Source: a virus
Strand: one strand, 5' to 3'
IMG/VR virus record: IMGVR_UViG_3300031576_000115
Location: 1 to 43,441 of that record
Length of the DNA stretch: 43,441 nt
Shown: positions 6,412 to 21,151 of the stretch, in pieces
Layout: each line of letters starts with the position of its first letter
Numbering within the stretch: the first letter of the stretch is position 1
The notes under the pieces: model-generated
Databases searched by the model: none
The model's input: the letters and a program-made list of their open reading frames with translations, nothing else
What the model was told of the DNA's origin: nothing
Made by a program: the position numbers and the translations under genes

Positions 6412-6426
6412 GTCGCTTCGCTCCAG
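6412..6426 (-). repeat. Leader cassette L1, copy 2
   Basis: Minus-strand CTGGAGCGAAGCGAC directly before the protease ATG at 6411, supplying GGAG. Followed upstream by family A copy A3. Confidence 0.8.
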
Positions 6427-6429
6427 GGG

Positions 6430-6498
6430 ACTAGGCTGTAGGCTCTAGGCTGTAGAAATTCAGCGCCTACGGTCTACAGCCTTCAGCCCACGGCCTAT
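6430..6498. repeat. Family A palindromic repeat, copy A3
   Basis: Arms ctaggctgtaggctctagg and cctacggtctacagcc form a long interrupted inverted repeat between portal and protease genes. It fills the whole intergenic gap. Confidence 0.9.
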
Positions 6499-8108: not shown

Positions 8109-8179
8109 TTGTAGGCTCTAGGCTGTAGACTGTAGGCCGTAGGCGCTTCCTACAGCCTTCAGCCTACGGTTTTCAGTCT
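8109..8179. repeat. Family A palindromic repeat, copy A4
   Basis: Fills the gap between gpW-position gene and portal. Left arm gtaggctctaggctgtagac and right arm cctacagccttcagcctacgg. Confidence 0.9.
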
Positions 8180-8188
8180 GGTTTTTCA

Positions 8189-9033: not shown

Positions 9034-9471
9034 TTACGATCCGGGCGGCAGTCGGAACAACATCGTTTTTCCCCGGCAGACGATCGGCTCGATGGGCCGC
9101 GCCTCCAACAGCACCCACCCCACCGGCCCTTCAAACCACGGATCGTCTATCACCCAATCATAGGTCCGGTCGATCTCGTCCGTCCTATCTTTTCTCCCCA
9201 CGCATTCCACGAGTCGCGCCATCCCGATCACCGCCCCATAAATCAAGTCTGAAGGCTGTAGACCGTAGGCTGTAGGGCCCGCGTCTTCCCTACCACCTTC
9301 AGCCTTCAGTCTATAGCCTCGTGTCTTCGAGGCGTGAATCCCGATCCACCCGCGGTAGGGCGTGGCCCAGGTCCGGTTCTCCACCCGTTTGGGCCCGTGT
9401 ACGATGAGGTGCGCGTAGGGTTGGCGAACGGACAGGATGGGGATGCTGTGAATATCGAATGGGCTCGTCAC
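9034..9471 (-). CDS. ASCH-domain protein with in-frame repeat insertion
   Basis: 145 aa, start GTG 9471 overlapping the upstream stop (GTGA). The N-terminal ILSVRQPYAHLIVHG, then KRVENRTW and YRGWIGIHA, is the ASCH/PUA-like signature associated with RNA or modified-nucleotide binding. The domain is interrupted after IHASKT by family A copy A5, read in frame as YRLKAEGG...GPTAYGLQP. The natural sequence resumes at LIYGAVIGMARLVEC, a typical ASCH strand. The phage evidently tolerates the insert, probably in a surface loop. Confidence 0.85.
   Translation of the reverse strand: MTSPFDIHSIPILSVRQPYAHLIVHGPKRVENRTWATPYRGWIGIHASKTRGYRLKAEGGREDAGPTAYGLQPSDLIYGAVIGMARLVECVGRKDRTDEIDRTYDWVIDDPWFEGPVGWVLLEARPIEPIVCRGKTMLFRLPPGS
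9246..9320. repeat. Family A palindromic repeat, copy A5, in frame inside the ASCH gene
   Basis: Arms ctgaaggctgtagaccgtagg and ccttcagccttcagtctatag. Translated on the minus strand in the one stop-free frame as RLKAEGG...AGPTAYGLQPS, splitting the ASCH fold. Confidence 0.9.
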
Positions 9472-10196: not shown

Positions 10197-10260
10197 GTAA
10201 CTAGGCTGAAGGCTGTAGGTTTTTTGCGCCTATAGCCTACGGTCTACAGCCTATAGCCTC
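10197..10260. repeat. Family A palindromic repeat, copy A6
   Basis: Intergenic copy with arms ctaggctgaaggctgtagg and cctacggtctacagcctatag around a T-rich loop, between two small genes. Confidence 0.9.
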
Positions 10261-14140: not shown

Positions 14141-14236
14141 TTCTTCGTCTTTCTTCCTAATCTATCCGCCGTCTCAACGTCATCTACGTAAGGGTTCCGG
14201 AATACTCCATCGTTGTCATTTCTTGCTCGCTTTCTT

Positions 14237-14317
14237 TTAAGTTACCGACCTCGACCTCGACCCCGACACCGACCACGACCCCGACCACGACCACTTTTGT
14301 CTTTGTGCGCGAAGCAT
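14237..14317 (-). CDS. Tiny Ser/Trp/Arg repeat peptide (low confidence)
   Basis: 26 codons from ATG 14317, which overlaps a TAA stop (TAATG) and has GGGAGG eight bases upstream. The product reads as WS, GS and RS dipeptides because it is encoded by a (CGACC)n minisatellite. Good initiation signals and coupling argue for translation. The simple sequence argues against a folded protein. Confidence 0.3.
   Translation of the reverse strand: MLRAQRQKWSWSGSWSVSGSRSRSVT
14243..14293. repeat. CGACC-type minisatellite
   Basis: Plus-strand run of cgacctcgaccccgacaccg and further cgacc units, period five to six. Lies in the 97 nt between the tiny ORF start and the KOW-like gene; no other gene was seen in 14141-14236. 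Confidence 0.8.
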
Positions 14318-14574
14318 TATTTCAACCTCCCAAACGACTCAATCGCCGCAATTTGAACGTACCATTCATGCGGCAGTTTTTGTGCGTCTTTTCACTCTTT
14401 CGTGGCTAGTTCGCCGGTTTCGTACACGATTGCGGCATCATGCAGCAGCACCAATGTCGCATTGACGCCAACCAGAGTACCAGTGTAGATGTAGTTCAAG
14501 CAGAAGAGCGTAACTCTTTCACCGAGCAGTTTCTCCAAACCTTCGCCCATGACCTCATCAACTATTTTTCTCAT
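14317..14574 (-). CDS. Sm-like small protein interrupted by an in-frame TGA
   Basis: From ATG 14574 (ATGA overlap) the first 60 codons read GERVTLFCLNYIYTGTLVGV, NATLVLLHDAAIVYETGE, an Sm/Hfq-like beta-strand pattern. TGA at 14392-14394 stops it after TKE. In the same frame, 24 further sense codons read KDAQKLPHEWYVQIAAIESF, then GRLK, before TAA 14317-14319, which overlaps the next start. From memory, related phage proteins carry such a C-terminal segment, so the TGA probably replaces a sense codon such as TGG. Either a nonsense mutation or UGA readthrough. Confidence 0.65.
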
Positions 14575-14993
14575 CGTTTTCCCTTCTTTTTATTTGACCT
14601 AGGCCTCGGAAAGATTGTCGTTCCATCCCACGGGCAATTCGGACATTCGATCTTGTGTTTAGCTTCGAGCGGCAGAAACGCGGCTTTCAAGACCTTGTCG
14701 TACTCGGCCCACGCGCCTTGCTCAACCCTGAAGTACTTAGCCATCGCGACGTTCTTCACCTTCTCGGCGGCTTGCTCAACCTTGTCGTACCTGGCAAACG
14801 CGGCGTTCTTGGCCTTCTCGTACTCGGCTAGCAATTGCGTGGCTTTTGTGCTCATGGGCTGATACAGACGCAATCGCAACTCTTGTTCGGCCTTGGGTTT
14901 GTCGGCTTTGATGAAAGCAATGCAATTTTTTCCCAGCCAGTTGTCCCACTCGCATAAAATGTCGTCATGGCAATGCCATGATCCGGTTGTCAT
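14571..14993 (-). CDS. Coiled-coil protein with C-terminal Cys pair
   Basis: 140 aa from ATG 14993 (MTTGSWHCHDDILCEWDNW), overlapping the stop of the Lar-like gene (ATGA). The middle consists of repeated Ala-Lys-Tyr helical units (LLAEYEKAKNAAFARYDK, VEQAAEKVKNVAMAKY, VEQGAWAEYDKVLKAAF), predicted coiled coil with about 17-residue periodicity. The C-terminus has ECPNC and a basic tail. No family recognised; possibly a nucleic-acid-associated or structural factor. Confidence 0.65.
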   Translation of the reverse strand: MTTGSWHCHDDILCEWDNWLGKNCIAFIKADKPKAEQELRLRLYQPMSTKATQLLAEYEKAKNAAFARYDKVEQAAEKVKNVAMAKYFRVEQGAWAEYDKVLKAAFLPLEAKHKIECPNCPWDGTTIFPRPRSNKKKGKR

Positions 14994-15184
14994 TTTTTGC
15001 TCTTTTTCTTCTTCACGTCCCAGGAATCCCAAATGGACCAAGCCTCTTCGATCGTAGGACAATTCAGGCCAAACACGACCATCCGACACATGGGATTAGC
15101 GCAGGCAATTCTCCAGCCCGCGCGCACTTCCGGCTTTACTCCGCACCACGTTCACGGCTTGTGATTTTTTGGCTTTGGCTTCAT
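14990..15184 (-). CDS. Lar-like zinc ribbon gene with in-frame TGA at codon 11
   Basis: From ATG 15184 (overlapping the upstream stop, ATGA) to TGA 14990-14992 (overlapping the next ATG) there are 65 codons in one frame. The only interruption is TGA at 15152-15154. The frame reads MKPKPKNHKP-TGA-TWCGVKPEVRAGWRIACAN, then PMCRM and TIEEAWSIWDSWD. That is the Lar-type pattern (C-x2-C, W-x-x-x-C-x-x-x-x-C, EEA-x-x-x-W). The TGA sits where the first zinc Cys is expected. Single-base loss (TGC/TGT to TGA) or recoding (Sec, Cys or Trp) are the options. Confidence 0.6.
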
Positions 15185-15390
15185 TGCTCGTCATCCAAGC
15201 TGAGAGATTCGATGCACGTTGCAGCGTGCTGGGTAATGTCTCTCAGCGCCGACGCCGTGTCTTCCTTGGGCACGGAACTATCACTCATAATCTTGCAGTC
15301 GATCAAGCGTTTGATTTCTTCGCACGCCTGTTCCAGCCTCGTGCTCTTGGCTTTGGATTTCATATCGCCGGTTTCTTTACTGTGCTTCAT
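15181..15390 (-). CDS. Small charged protein of unknown function
   Basis: 69 aa from ATG 15390, overlapping the upstream stop (ATGA), with its own stop overlapping the Lar-like start. Lys/Glu-rich helical sequence (TRLEQACEEIKRLIDCKI; ALRDITQHAATCIESLSL). No family recognised; tightly coupled to both neighbours. Confidence 0.65.
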   Translation of the reverse strand: MKHSKETGDMKSKAKSTRLEQACEEIKRLIDCKIMSDSSVPKEDTASALRDITQHAATCIESLSLDDEQ

Positions 15391-16331
15391 TCTGTCGCGC
15401 CTTTCAAAAACGCCAATCTGTTCGTCCAGTTCGGATCAACAATCCGCAGATCGAGCAGCGAGGGGTACATGATGACCGCCGACGGCCCGGCCATGAATCG
15501 CCGCGGCCGCTCCCGATACCATTTCCCGTACAATTCACGCCCCATTTCTCTCGAATACTCAAAGTCCGCCGTCCACTGCCACGCCTTGAAGTCGGACCAC
15601 GTGTAGCGTTGCCCGCACCCGACGCTCACCCATGCACATGTATGGATGCCCATGGCGTCGGCCGACGCCTTGCCCAGGCGGGACATTTGCCGCGTCTCCG
15701 CGATCTCACCGACGTTGTACGCCTCCCATCCGATGCTTTGCAGGCCAGGGAAGGGCGCGGACCAGGGCGGCAAAACATACCCGTCCGGTTCGACTGGGGC
15801 CGCCATTGGCCCGAACGCATACCAGTGAACTTCGCTGCAACCCGCGATCGTGCGGATGAAGGAATCATAGGAGGCGTAGAGTTCGGCACACTTCGATCTG
15901 GCGGGTTCGGCGCGACAGTCGAGCGTCTCGGCGTCCACGAGGCAGACGATCGTCGGTTTGTAGGCCGATGCAGCCAGCGCCTTGGCGCAACCAGCTTGCC
16001 ATTGCCGCCACGTAAGACCGAACGCCTGCATCGCCGCCGGGCTGTTCGGATCATTGACCGTCGGGTCGAACCACGGACTAAACGTGACCGCCAACTTGGC
16101 CGCATGGGCTTGCGCGATCTTCAGGGCAACTGCGACTTGGTCCTTGGACGCCTTTTCGGAAACCCCGATGCTGCCGGTGATCCGCGTGACCTCGGCTAGC
16201 TCTGCGTTGTCAATCTTCAACACTTCGGAGGGAATCGGCCACGAGTAGGTCGCTACGGGCAAGGGCTTGACCAACTTCAACTCATCGATCGGCGCCCCGA
16301 ACAACAGAACAATCCACACCATCCAGTTCAT
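15387..16331 (-). CDS. Secreted protein, possibly glycoside-hydrolase-like
   Basis: 314 aa from ATG 16331, coupled to the upstream stop (TGATG) with GGAAGG about ten bases upstream. The N-terminus (MNWMVWIVLLFGAPIDE) is a signal peptide or anchor. The body has segments in the style of TIM-barrel proteins (AKLAVTFSPWFDP; PTIVCLVDAETLDC; SEVHWYAFGPMAAP; IGWEAYNVGE; GIHTCAWVSVGCG), with acidic residues at strand ends. It may be an export-dependent cell-envelope enzyme and is the best candidate seen for a lytic enzyme, but no named lysin family was recognised. Confidence 0.55.
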   Translation of the reverse strand: MNWMVWIVLLFGAPIDELKLVKPLPVATYSWPIPSEVLKIDNAELAEVTRITGSIGVSEKASKDQVAVALKIAQAHAAKLAVTFSPWFDPTVNDPNSPAAMQAFGLTWRQWQAGCAKALAASAYKPTIVCLVDAETLDCRAEPARSKCAELYASYDSFIRTIAGCSEVHWYAFGPMAAPVEPDGYVLPPWSAPFPGLQSIGWEAYNVGEIAETRQMSRLGKASADAMGIHTCAWVSVGCGQRYTWSDFKAWQWTADFEYSREMGRELYGKWYRERPRRFMAGPSAVIMYPSLLDLRIVDPNWTNRLAFLKGATE

Positions 16332-16850: not shown

Positions 16851-17552
16851 TTATATCTTGATCGCCCTAGCGTCGTACCCGTCGCCGAGCAGTTCCTTCA
16901 GCGCGTCCCGCTGGGCGGTCTTGCTCGTACACACCACCAGCACCCCCCACTGCTCGATCCGCGGCAGCTCCGCCCGCGTCCGTCCCTTCGCTTCCTCCCC
17001 GACTTCCGCCGCGACCGTCAGGGCCAACGCCGTCTTGATCTCATCCTTGTCGAAACCGGAAAGGGTGACATCCGCCGCCCGGTCCTCCATCAATCCGCCC
17101 AAGACGTCGACCAGGGCCAGCTCGTCCCATTCCCCAACGATCTTGTTGAGGGCCAGGTTGAGCGTCCTTTCCGCCGCCGGGCCCAAGTCCACCACGCTCA
17201 CGTCCACGGCCTTGGCCGCGAACTCGCGGGTCAGGATTTTTAGGCGCATGTGCCCGCCGACCAGGTTGCCGCTGCGCTTGTTCCAGATCAGCGGGTCCAC
17301 CAGCCCGAACTCTCCGATGGAGCGCTTCAGCTTCTGATAGTCCGGGTCGGAGGGCTGCAAGTCCTTGCGCGGGTTGTATTTGGCGACCTTGATCCGCTTG
17401 ACCGGGAGGCGCTTGAGCAGCACCCGGCCCACAGATGAGGCTGTAGGCTGTAGACCATAGGCTGTAGGACCCACAGCCTTCAGCCTGCGGCCTAGTTCAT
17501 TCGTGCGGCGTGCCGCCGCTGTGTCAGCAGTGGGTTTCTTGGTTTTCATCAT
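16851..17552 (-). CDS. ParB-like nuclease-domain protein (first paralogue)
   Basis: 233 aa, start ATG 17552 overlapping the upstream stop. The domain reads KYNPRKDLQPSD, WNKRSGNLVGGHMRLKIL, ERTLNLALNKIVGEWDE, the ParB/Srx fold with the GGHxR loop. No ParB helix-turn-helix was recognised. The C-terminus (WGVLVVCTSKTAQRDALKEL) is extra relative to the paralogue at 9468. The N-terminal about 45 residues consist of repeats read in frame: family C (PTADTAAA) then family A (RRLKAVGPTAYGLQPTA). Function unknown. Confidence 0.85.
   Translation of the reverse strand: MMKTKKPTADTAAARRTNELGRRLKAVGPTAYGLQPTASSVGRVLLKRLPVKRIKVAKYNPRKDLQPSDPDYQKLKRSIGEFGLVDPLIWNKRSGNLVGGHMRLKILTREFAAKAVDVSVVDLGPAAERTLNLALNKIVGEWDELALVDVLGGLMEDRAADVTLSGFDKDEIKTALALTVAAEVGEEAKGRTRAELPRIEQWGVLVVCTSKTAQRDALKELLGDGYDARAIKI
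17437..17497. repeat. Family A palindromic repeat, copy A7, in frame inside a ParB-like gene
   Basis: Arms gaggctgtaggctgtagacc and cacagccttcagcctgcgg. Minus-strand translation RRLKAVGPTAYGLQPTA uses the same frame as the copies in ASCH and TerL. Confidence 0.9.
17511..17533. repeat. Family C palindrome, copy C2, in frame inside a ParB-like gene
   Basis: Plus-strand gccgctgtgtcagcagtgg, translated on the minus strand as PTADTAAA at the very N-terminus of the ParB-like protein. Confidence 0.8.
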
Positions 17553-18977: not shown

Positions 18978-21151
18978 TCCCGCGCCCCCACGTAAAACTC
19001 TCGCCCGTCCGGGGTCTGGATCCCTTCCTCCGTTTCGACGTTTTGACTTTTTGACGTTTTGACGTTTCTCGCGCAAGCGAGTTGCGCCAGGTGCCCCGCC
19101 GCCGCGGCGTAACACGCCGCGTCCAGGTAGTGATTGCTCTTCCCCACCCGCTCCCAGCGAGTCACCTGCCCGCGATCGGCCACGAACATCTGCACCGGCC
19201 GCTCCGCGGTGAGGTGCTTGGCGAAGGTGAGGTGCTCGGCCTTCACCGCCGCGTACAACCCCATCGCCCCCGGTTCGCCCGGCGGCATGGCCAGCCGCTC
19301 GTGGACCCACGTCTTCCAGAAGTCCACGTTGACCTCCACCATGTGCACGTGCTCCGCCTGATGCCAGGCGACGTGGTAGCCCTCCCCAACGTACTGCACC
19401 ACGTTCCCCGTGCGCGTGGGCCGCGTGTAGCGCCGTCCCGTGTCCGCCGTCTCCCCCCTTCCGTACAACGGGCGGAACACGTCCGCCTTCCATTCCTGTT
19501 TCGTCTCGCGGATGAATTGCAGGGCCGCGTCGCGGCTCTCCGCGTAGCCGGTGTCGATCCAACACTGCGTGGGGCGGTGCAATGCGCCGCTGCCGTCCGC
19601 CCAACCCTGGGCGCAGCGATCGCGGAACTCGCGCAGCGCCACCAACGTGGCCTTCTCCACTCCGAGGTCGATCGTCGGCACGTCGATCACCCCGTACTCA
19701 AAGATGTGACCAAACAACAAGGCTGTAGGCTGTAGGCTGTAGGCTGTAGGTCCCGCGCCTTCAGCCTTCAGCCTATGGTCTACAGTCTGGTCTCCCAGAT
19801 ACCATGCGATGTTGACGTAGAAGGCACGCCATTTGCCAAGGTCGACCCCCGATGACACGCACACCGTACCCTCCGGCACCGTCCCCCGCCCCCATGTCCC
19901 GATGCGGCGTTGCACCCCGTCGCAGGTGATGGGCGCCAAGACGGTGATGTCCGGCTTGTGCGGCAACCCCCACAACTTCTGAAGCCGCGTGCGGCTGGCG
20001 CTCTCCTCGTCGGCGGCGTGGGCGTAGCGCCATTCCTCCGCCGCCAGACTTCCCGCGGTGCGCATGAAGTTGTTGATCGCCGAGAACCGGAACCCCAAGA
20101 TCCGCGTCCGCGGCTGCGGCCCGACGATCACGTCCTCGCTGCCGGGAATGGCCCGCGTTTCTTCCATCGCCATTTCCGCGTTTCGGCGTTTCGGCGTTTC
20201 GGCGTTTCCGATGGTCTGCCCCTTGTGCAGCAACACCGCCGCGAGGTTCATTTCCTTCCGCTCGCCCTCCGACCACGGTTTCAGGCAATGCGGGCAGGCG
20301 AACGCTCCATTTTCTTGGGCCTCAATCTCGTCGGCGGCCGTTTTCCAACCGGTGAGCATCTCCGTGTCCGTCTCCGTGTCGCTGGGCACGATCCATTGCT
20401 CGCAGTGCCAGCAACACAAGGCGATGCGGCTCTGCGAGCCGAGCATGTAATCCTGCCAGATGCGCCCCTGGGCGGTCGACGGCGTGCATTCCTTGTAGAC
20501 CAGGGCCTTATCGTCCCAGGCCTTGGTGCGGTCGATGAACTGGTCGATCTTGGACCCTTCCTCGGACACCGAGGAAATGTGGTCCATCTTGTCCACTTCC
20601 GTGATAATCATCACCCGCGTGGTCTCGCTGGAGCGCTGCGTATCGCCGCCCTGCCCGGACATGAAGCGCAGCGTGGCCCGATTGCGGAAGCGCACGGTCT
20701 GCACCCGGTCGCCGTCTCTACTCCCGTCGCCGCGTTCGGGCATGAATTCCCGATAGCGCGTTCCTTCGATGGCCGGTTTGAGGATGCTGACCCACTTCTC
20801 CCCCGCCAATTTCAGGTCGGGGATACCGCAGATGGTTTTTTCGCGCAATTCAAAGAGGTGATAGAGAGTGGGGATCACGTAGCAGATGGTGGTCTTCCCG
20901 GACTGTACGCACCCCACGACGTTGATGTCTGACCAATTCCCGCTGTCGATTTCGGTGAAGAGCAAGCGACTGAAAGGTTGCCGTTCCCCGCGGAAGCGCC
21001 CCGGATAGGGGCCTTCCCCGAGCACGATCTCTTCCTCCGCGAACTGCATCATTCCCCGCCGCTTGGGTTCGCCGGCGGCGACGATGAAACTTTGAAGGGT
21101 CTCCCGATGGTTTGCTCGAACTCCGCGGCGATCGACGGCTACTGGCGTCAC
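18974..21151 (-). CDS. Terminase large subunit (GpA family)
   Basis: 725 aa from GTG 21151, which overlaps the upstream TGA (GTGA); the frame is open further upstream but low-complexity. Walker A GCVQSGKT (80-87), Walker B IITEVD (about 182-187), zinc-like CWHC (247-250) and CPHC (286-289), and nuclease Asp in GVDLGKW (436-) give the lambda gpA order of ATPase then endonuclease. Two repeats are inserted in frame: family D (about 315-330) between the domains and family A (about 455-478) inside the nuclease region. The C-terminus carries another family D copy. It cuts and pumps DNA at the portal. Confidence 0.93.
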   Translation of the reverse strand: MTPVAVDRRGVRANHRETLQSFIVAAGEPKRRGMMQFAEEEIVLGEGPYPGRFRGERQPFSRLLFTEIDSGNWSDINVVGCVQSGKTTICYVIPTLYHLFELREKTICGIPDLKLAGEKWVSILKPAIEGTRYREFMPERGDGSRDGDRVQTVRFRNRATLRFMSGQGGDTQRSSETTRVMIITEVDKMDHISSVSEEGSKIDQFIDRTKAWDDKALVYKECTPSTAQGRIWQDYMLGSQSRIALCCWHCEQWIVPSDTETDTEMLTGWKTAADEIEAQENGAFACPHCLKPWSEGERKEMNLAAVLLHKGQTIGNAETPKRRNAEMAMEETRAIPGSEDVIVGPQPRTRILGFRFSAINNFMRTAGSLAAEEWRYAHAADEESASRTRLQKLWGLPHKPDITVLAPITCDGVQRRIGTWGRGTVPEGTVCVSSGVDLGKWRAFYVNIAWYLGDQTVDHRLKAEGAGPTAYSLQPTALLFGHIFEYGVIDVPTIDLGVEKATLVALREFRDRCAQGWADGSGALHRPTQCWIDTGYAESRDAALQFIRETKQEWKADVFRPLYGRGETADTGRRYTRPTRTGNVVQYVGEGYHVAWHQAEHVHMVEVNVDFWKTWVHERLAMPPGEPGAMGLYAAVKAEHLTFAKHLTAERPVQMFVADRGQVTRWERVGKSNHYLDAACYAAAAGHLAQLACARNVKTSKSQNVETEEGIQTPDGREFYVGARE
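19026..19072. repeat. Family D repeat, copy D5, in frame at the TerL C-terminus
   Basis: Plus-strand gtttcgacgttttgactttt and tgacgttttgacg, read on the minus strand as NVKTSKSQNVETEE near the end of TerL. Confidence 0.8.
19719..19791. repeat. Family A palindromic repeat, copy A8, in frame inside TerL
   Basis: Four tandem ggctgtag units in the left arm, and ccttcagccttcagcctatgg in the right. Minus-strand translation HRLKAEGAGPTAYSLQPTA interrupts the TerL nuclease domain between YLGDQTVD and LLFGHIFEYG. Confidence 0.92.
20168..20212. repeat. Family D repeat, copy D6, in frame inside TerL
   Basis: Plus-strand cgtttcggcgtttcggcgtt and further units; minus-strand translation NAETPKRRNAEM between the ATPase and nuclease domains of TerL. 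Confidence 0.9.

Follow-up and report, generated by a model that had tools for sequence, protein, structure and literature searches.

The Sm-like gene and its surroundings

The window, by which we mean the whole analyzed stretch of DNA, is the 43.4-kb contig IMGVR_UViG_3300031576_000115 of an uncultivated virus. Its minus strand carries the terminase, portal, protease, and major head protein genes together with a row of small genes linked by ATGA overlaps (15390-15181, 15184-14990, 14993-14571, and 14574-14317). One member of the row, delineated from the sequence and its open reading frames (15181..15390), overlaps a possible zinc-ribbon-like small gene that was recognized by eye and is cut by a TGA at 15152-15154, at a Cys-like position (14990..15184). 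The small gene immediately 5' of the Sm-like gene (14571..14993) encodes 140 amino acids with IECPNCPWDG near the end and has ATGA overlaps on both sides; profile and library searches assigned it to no clear family.

The last gene of the row (14317..14574) encodes a protein of the Sm-like (LSm) fold, as judged from its translation, 124 distinct relatives, an AlphaFold model, and fold matches in the PDB. It has 85 codons if an in-frame TGA is read as Trp and 60 if it is read as a stop. This TGA, codon 61 (14392..14394), replaces a near-invariant Trp codon and is followed by a conserved tail of 24 codons (14320..14391), in which the model places the final three Sm-fold strands (residues 63-66, 71-74, and 78-82). 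The last base of the terminal TAA starts the ATG of the next gene (TAATG), a small (X-Ser)n repeat gene, MLRAQRQKWSWSGSWSVSGSRSRSVT (14237..14317), which is a short member of a gene class that commonly follows the relatives of the Sm-like gene. An imperfect array of NGGTCG hexanucleotides inside the repeat gene (14243..14292) is the only such array found across the window.

The G+C content of the region between 14.2 and 15.4 kb is 51%, compared to 61% for the whole window; for the small-gene segment taken as 14200-15600 it is 51-54%. Nothing in the nearest relative contig (L160/L163) matches this segment. The terminase and portal of that contig are 76% and 84% identical to those of the window, and it also has the protease, methyltransferase, and other genes in common with it. 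The absence of the segment from that contig is consistent with its being dispensable. Elsewhere in the window, short interspersed repeats of approximately 40-80 bases (19761-19780, 17438-17498, 10202-10259, 9240-9276, 8119-8188, and 6414-6488) are found repeatedly, as they are in the nearest relative contig. One of them sits in frame within the terminase gene (RLKAEGAGPTAYSLQPTA) and is absent from the terminase of the nearest relative.

The AlphaFold model of the Sm-like protein, built from an alignment of 71 family members (mean pLDDT 96, pTM 0.84), contains a helix (residues 12-16) followed by strands 20-25, 29-37, 41-52, 63-66, 71-74, and 78-82. The best 50 PDB matches listed by Foldseek are all Sm/LSm proteins or assemblies containing them, with a TM-score to the query of up to 0.69. 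These data support an Sm/LSm fold, with an N-terminal helix and a bent small beta barrel, for the predicted gene product. SmAP and the subunits of Lsm1-7/2-8 share this arrangement of a short N-terminal helix and a small beta barrel; sequence identity to Sm/LSm proteins is only about 11-20%, the likeness being one of predicted fold. A PDB sequence profile search gave no significant Sm/LSm match, and searches of PHROGs, Pfam, and PDB sequences with the protein yielded nothing useful: the first family member falls into no Pfam or PHROG family, and the only Pfam family touched is DUF6897, weakly and by 3 of 21 members. Several DUF6948 phage proteins are found among the viral fold matches of the model, whereas the first member of the Sm-like family has no Pfam match. 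As modeled, the product has an Sm-like fold but no demonstrated place in a known Sm sequence family.

The in-frame TGA and its column in relatives

Read on the minus strand, 14574..14317 encodes MRKIVDEV...GELATKE, a stop (TGA, 14394-14392), KDAQKLPHEWYVQIAAIESFGRLK, and a second stop (TAA, 14319-14317). An earlier sequence-only reading of this DNA had pointed to the in-frame TGA and a 24-codon continuation to TAATG, 20 codons of which it printed, and both are present in the sequence. It had also judged two such cases within 800 bp hard to ascribe to chance; for the tail of the Sm-like gene, comparison with relatives does speak against chance. Body and tail align at full length with 124 distinct relatives, at identities of up to about 79%; this set consists of 21 close relatives from viral_contigs, all with intact frames of about 85-90 codons, and further homologues that were fetched. 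In the column of the TGA, the 124 distinct homologous segments have W in 113 cases, Y in 5, F in 4, and R and P in one each, and none has a stop. The residue usual at this position, about which the earlier reading had asked, is Trp, rarely replaced by Tyr or Phe. Neither of the findings that the earlier reading had named as speaking against it, relatives ending at this stop or a tail lacking conservation, was observed. Because the column is filled with Trp and the relatives have no stop, Trp is the expected residue, the 24 codons after the TGA are, by sequence conservation, genuine protein, and the stop at codon 61 is private to this record. The idea that the tail is a chance extension, not truly part of the gene, can practically be dismissed: nothing counted for it, the tail aligns with the relatives along its full length, and the TAATG junction resembles their compact junctions.

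Pattern scans of viral_contigs with the conserved site agree with this picture. The TGG form of the site gave at least 120 matches, and 88 of the 119 that were checked are plainly Sm-like, with further partial ones. The TGA form gave four matches, none of them homologous.

The other in-frame TGA lies in the gene at 15184-14990, which on the minus strand reads MKPKPKNHKP, a stop (TGA, 15154-15152), and TWCGVKPEVRAGWRIACANPMCR..., with ATGA overlaps at both ends. By eye the sequence suggests a small zinc-ribbon in which the TGA takes the place of a Cys, K-P-stop-T-W-C-G, similar to U-x-x-C. Searches of viral_contigs, phages, Pfam, NCBIfam, and PHROGs turned up no homologue, and assignment to a Lar-like or other named family was rejected after no library gave a match. 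The only matches obtained by tblastn, in Streptomyces phages (E 0.3) and mostly on the strand opposite to an annotated gene, were taken as chance. Selenocysteine insertion was rejected as well, as no SECIS-like hairpin lies just downstream of the TGA (z 0.2 against shuffles). Since the gene has no homologues, this TGA counts as evidence neither way. The earlier claim of two comparable cases within 800 bp is supported in part, through the Sm-like gene.

Global reassignment of UGA was rejected because of stop usage and intact conserved frames, in line with the earlier judgment that most genes end in TGA and that global recoding is unlikely. In a hand-picked set of 33 larger minus-strand genes, TGA terminates 19 and is the commonest stop; in their true frames, the conserved genes common to the window and the nearest relative contig have no in-frame stops in the window. 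We found no tRNA gene in the window, although the record may be incomplete, and so no suppressor tRNA encoded there. Restart of translation inside the tail was rejected, as its 24 codons include no Met codon. The 75 bases from the Sm-like TGA onward fold only slightly better than shuffled sequences (z -1.6; 13 of 200 shuffles as good). As for programmed readthrough, the extension is conserved in the relatives, but the stop is not. In code 15 crAss-like phages, a known case of stop reassignment, TAG is reassigned across the phage genome, as described in PMC9523058; an in-frame stop in a conserved phage gene is common to both, whereas here a single TGA lies in one testable gene and TGA is the main terminator elsewhere.

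Origin of the interruption

The reading that we favor, with moderate confidence, is that the TGA is a genuine, private, and probably recent nonsense substitution of TGG by TGA in codon 61. A single G-to-A change would have turned the Trp codon of this phage Sm/LSm-fold gene into TGA. Translation would then normally end there, giving a 60-residue product that lacks the last three strands of the predicted fold and probably cannot form a normal Sm-like protein or ring. The tail would owe its conserved look to the youth of the change, and not to being read. The repeat gene could still start, with GGGAGG some 9 bases ahead of its ATG, although it would presumably no longer be coupled to a ribosome that terminates at the normal TAA. 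The frame, the homology, Trp at the site, the predicted fold, and the lack of the stop in relatives come from the analysis itself, whereas the reality of the base, the youth of the change, and the loss of function are what we infer. Supporting this reading are the retention of Trp, or rarely Tyr or Phe, with no stop in the 124 relatives, the TGA-form scan devoid of homologues, the intact frames of the conserved genes, the use of TGA as the commonest stop, and the lack of a tRNA in the window; we favor it because it explains the data with no new mechanism. Counting against it, both the body and the complete 24-residue tail agree with the family, and we see no other damage, hence no actual decay. 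The second interruption in the row, if real, would make an isolated accident a little less natural; regional decay would explain it also.

The same private base could be an error of the metagenome consensus, the assembly showing TGA where the real phage has TGG. We give this a modest chance: a single base differs from the family, none of the 124 relatives has a stop, and the record is an uncultivated viral contig, but the flanking conserved genes show no run of further errors. In general experience, real nonsense variants are commoner than errors of a consensus, and an error is less likely here than a recent nonsense change. Rather improbable, too, is functional leaky readthrough, in which UGA-A would be misread by a near-cognate tRNA-Trp and mostly the 60-residue product, with some full-length protein carrying the right residue, would be made. 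The intact body and tail fit this explanation, and the expected Trp is exactly what near-cognate misreading of UGA gives. A UGA followed by A is reported to be prone to such misreading by tRNA-Trp in E. coli, in PMC5289835, which cites Engelberg-Kulka 1981. The window resembles this natural readthrough in its UGA-A and expected Trp and differs from it in that the stop is not conserved in the family. The arrangement occurs in none of the 124 relatives and so bears no sign of selection, and the sequence after the TGA folds only slightly better than chance. Low-level readthrough that inserts the correct residue is nevertheless plausible by analogy, and the codons elsewhere say little about a context-specific readthrough of the Sm-like TGA.

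Very unlikely, finally, is a selective suppression or reassignment of UGA in a block of genes, through a suppressor tRNA of the host or another element, or selenocysteine at the Cys-like TGA. In favor of it are two in-frame TGA codons in a stretch of 800 bp, the one at a Trp position and the other possibly at a Cys position. However, Trp and Cys would need different decoding, conserved frames elsewhere have no stop, genes of the window end mainly in TGA, no tRNA gene is present there, and the Cys-like gene has neither known homologues nor a SECIS-like hairpin after its TGA. The sequence-only reading had proposed readthrough or selective suppression of a gene block as worth testing. This is not supported: no significant RNA structure follows either TGA, and the missing stops in the 124 relatives and the missing homologues in the TGA-form scan speak against it as well. 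The favored nonsense substitution carries a wider caution: where a single metagenomic record has a stop followed by a tail that looks intact, recoding should be read from it only if relatives have the stop too.

The Sm-like gene and the (X-Ser)n repeat gene as a pair

Genes of the (X-Ser)n class follow the Sm-like gene in 83 of 96 non-redundant relatives, starting with an ATGA overlap in 38 of them; several of the remaining 13 are truncated by the end of a contig. Their products begin with a short leader, mostly basic, and continue as (Gly/Arg/Trp-Ser)n (L002-L156). Among 1796 X codons in the relatives, 1626 are NGG (GGG 650, TGG 511, AGG 247, and CGG 218). All six Ser codons are used across phages, and usually one predominates in each phage. 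The mean entropies of the six unit positions in 70 arrays are 1.55, 0.27, 0.16, 0.11, 0.03, and 0.22 bits, the units having been chosen by their X-Ser reading, which limits the freedom of the second codon but not that of its silent third base. Within a phage, the X codon is free to vary in its first base, and the other five bases of the unit are nearly fixed (0.03-0.27 bits). That different phages draw on both Ser codon boxes points to selection on the protein, and the uniformity of silent positions inside any one phage points to rapid turnover of the array. Two relatives whose Sm-like genes are 99.6% identical have repeat proteins of 61 and 35 residues. This pair consists of a viral contig and a contig from a Candidatus Amesbacteria MAG (L105 and L156), hinting at a Patescibacteria host and fast array change. 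A diversity-generating retroelement was considered as the source of array variation; it is argued against by arrays with AGC or TCA Ser codons, in which the A is uniform, since mutagenesis directed at adenines would have varied it.

The association was also approached blindly, by a scan of viral contigs for (GGTCGN)n arrays made with no reference to the Sm-like gene. Among the matches listed, 58 arrays had a callable upstream frame, and 48 of these follow an Sm-like gene, 12 of them strongly of the present family and the others of a second one; since the profile of the second family was built from the same array set, this count leans towards a match. With the profile of the present family alone, which comes from independent sequences, 40 of the 58 listed arrays pass E < 1e-3. 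Where no Sm-like gene lies upstream, some arrays seem to be chance repeats in other reading frames.

The second phage Sm-like family has a consensus of the type IGxxYxIRTVTxHxTGxVxx...LVLExAAWIADxGRF (L164-L279, e.g., L255, L180, L225, and L260). Profile comparison shows it to be homologous to the present family (hhalign probability 96.6, E 7e-10), and it is likewise followed by (X-Ser)n repeat genes. It differs in which residues are conserved and in being longer at the N terminus. The repeat genes behind it mostly start in the manner of MNxAxxRxGYD, often as MNxAxxRxGYDxS followed by (X-Ser)n, while those of the present family start with a basic K-Q-K-(Y/W)-R stretch. Outside the Sm-like gene, the clusters obtained in a six-frame comparison were mostly low-complexity or in a wrong frame and were left out.

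Only two of 50,697 deposited phage records, both derived from metagenomes, match queries from either Sm-like family. Where relatives lie on genome contigs, these always belong to MAGs (Patescibacteria, Elusimicrobia, Nitrospinaceae, and others), possibly as phage contigs binned with their hosts. We found no description of the Sm-like/(X-Ser)n pair in the open-licence papers searched. The pair is thus nearly invisible in described phages, whereas both pattern scans gave many matches, as minimum counts, in uncultivated viruses.

In this context, the gene pair matters more than the TGA itself. As a tentative interpretation, which we regard as possible and still short of probable, the pair may form a widespread and apparently undescribed two-gene phage module. 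It would comprise an Sm-like protein and a translationally linked (Gly/Arg/Trp-Ser)n gene with a fast-changing array, diversified at one position per six-base unit. The two products may act together, for instance in a ribonucleoprotein assembly whose Sm-like ring would bind either the RNA of the repeat or its disordered peptide. In that case, the window would represent a member with its Sm-like half either just broken or kept going by UGA readthrough. Array variation sits at the base that changes the amino acid, and silent positions are uniform within a phage, which raises the question of how phages make and keep repeat diversity.
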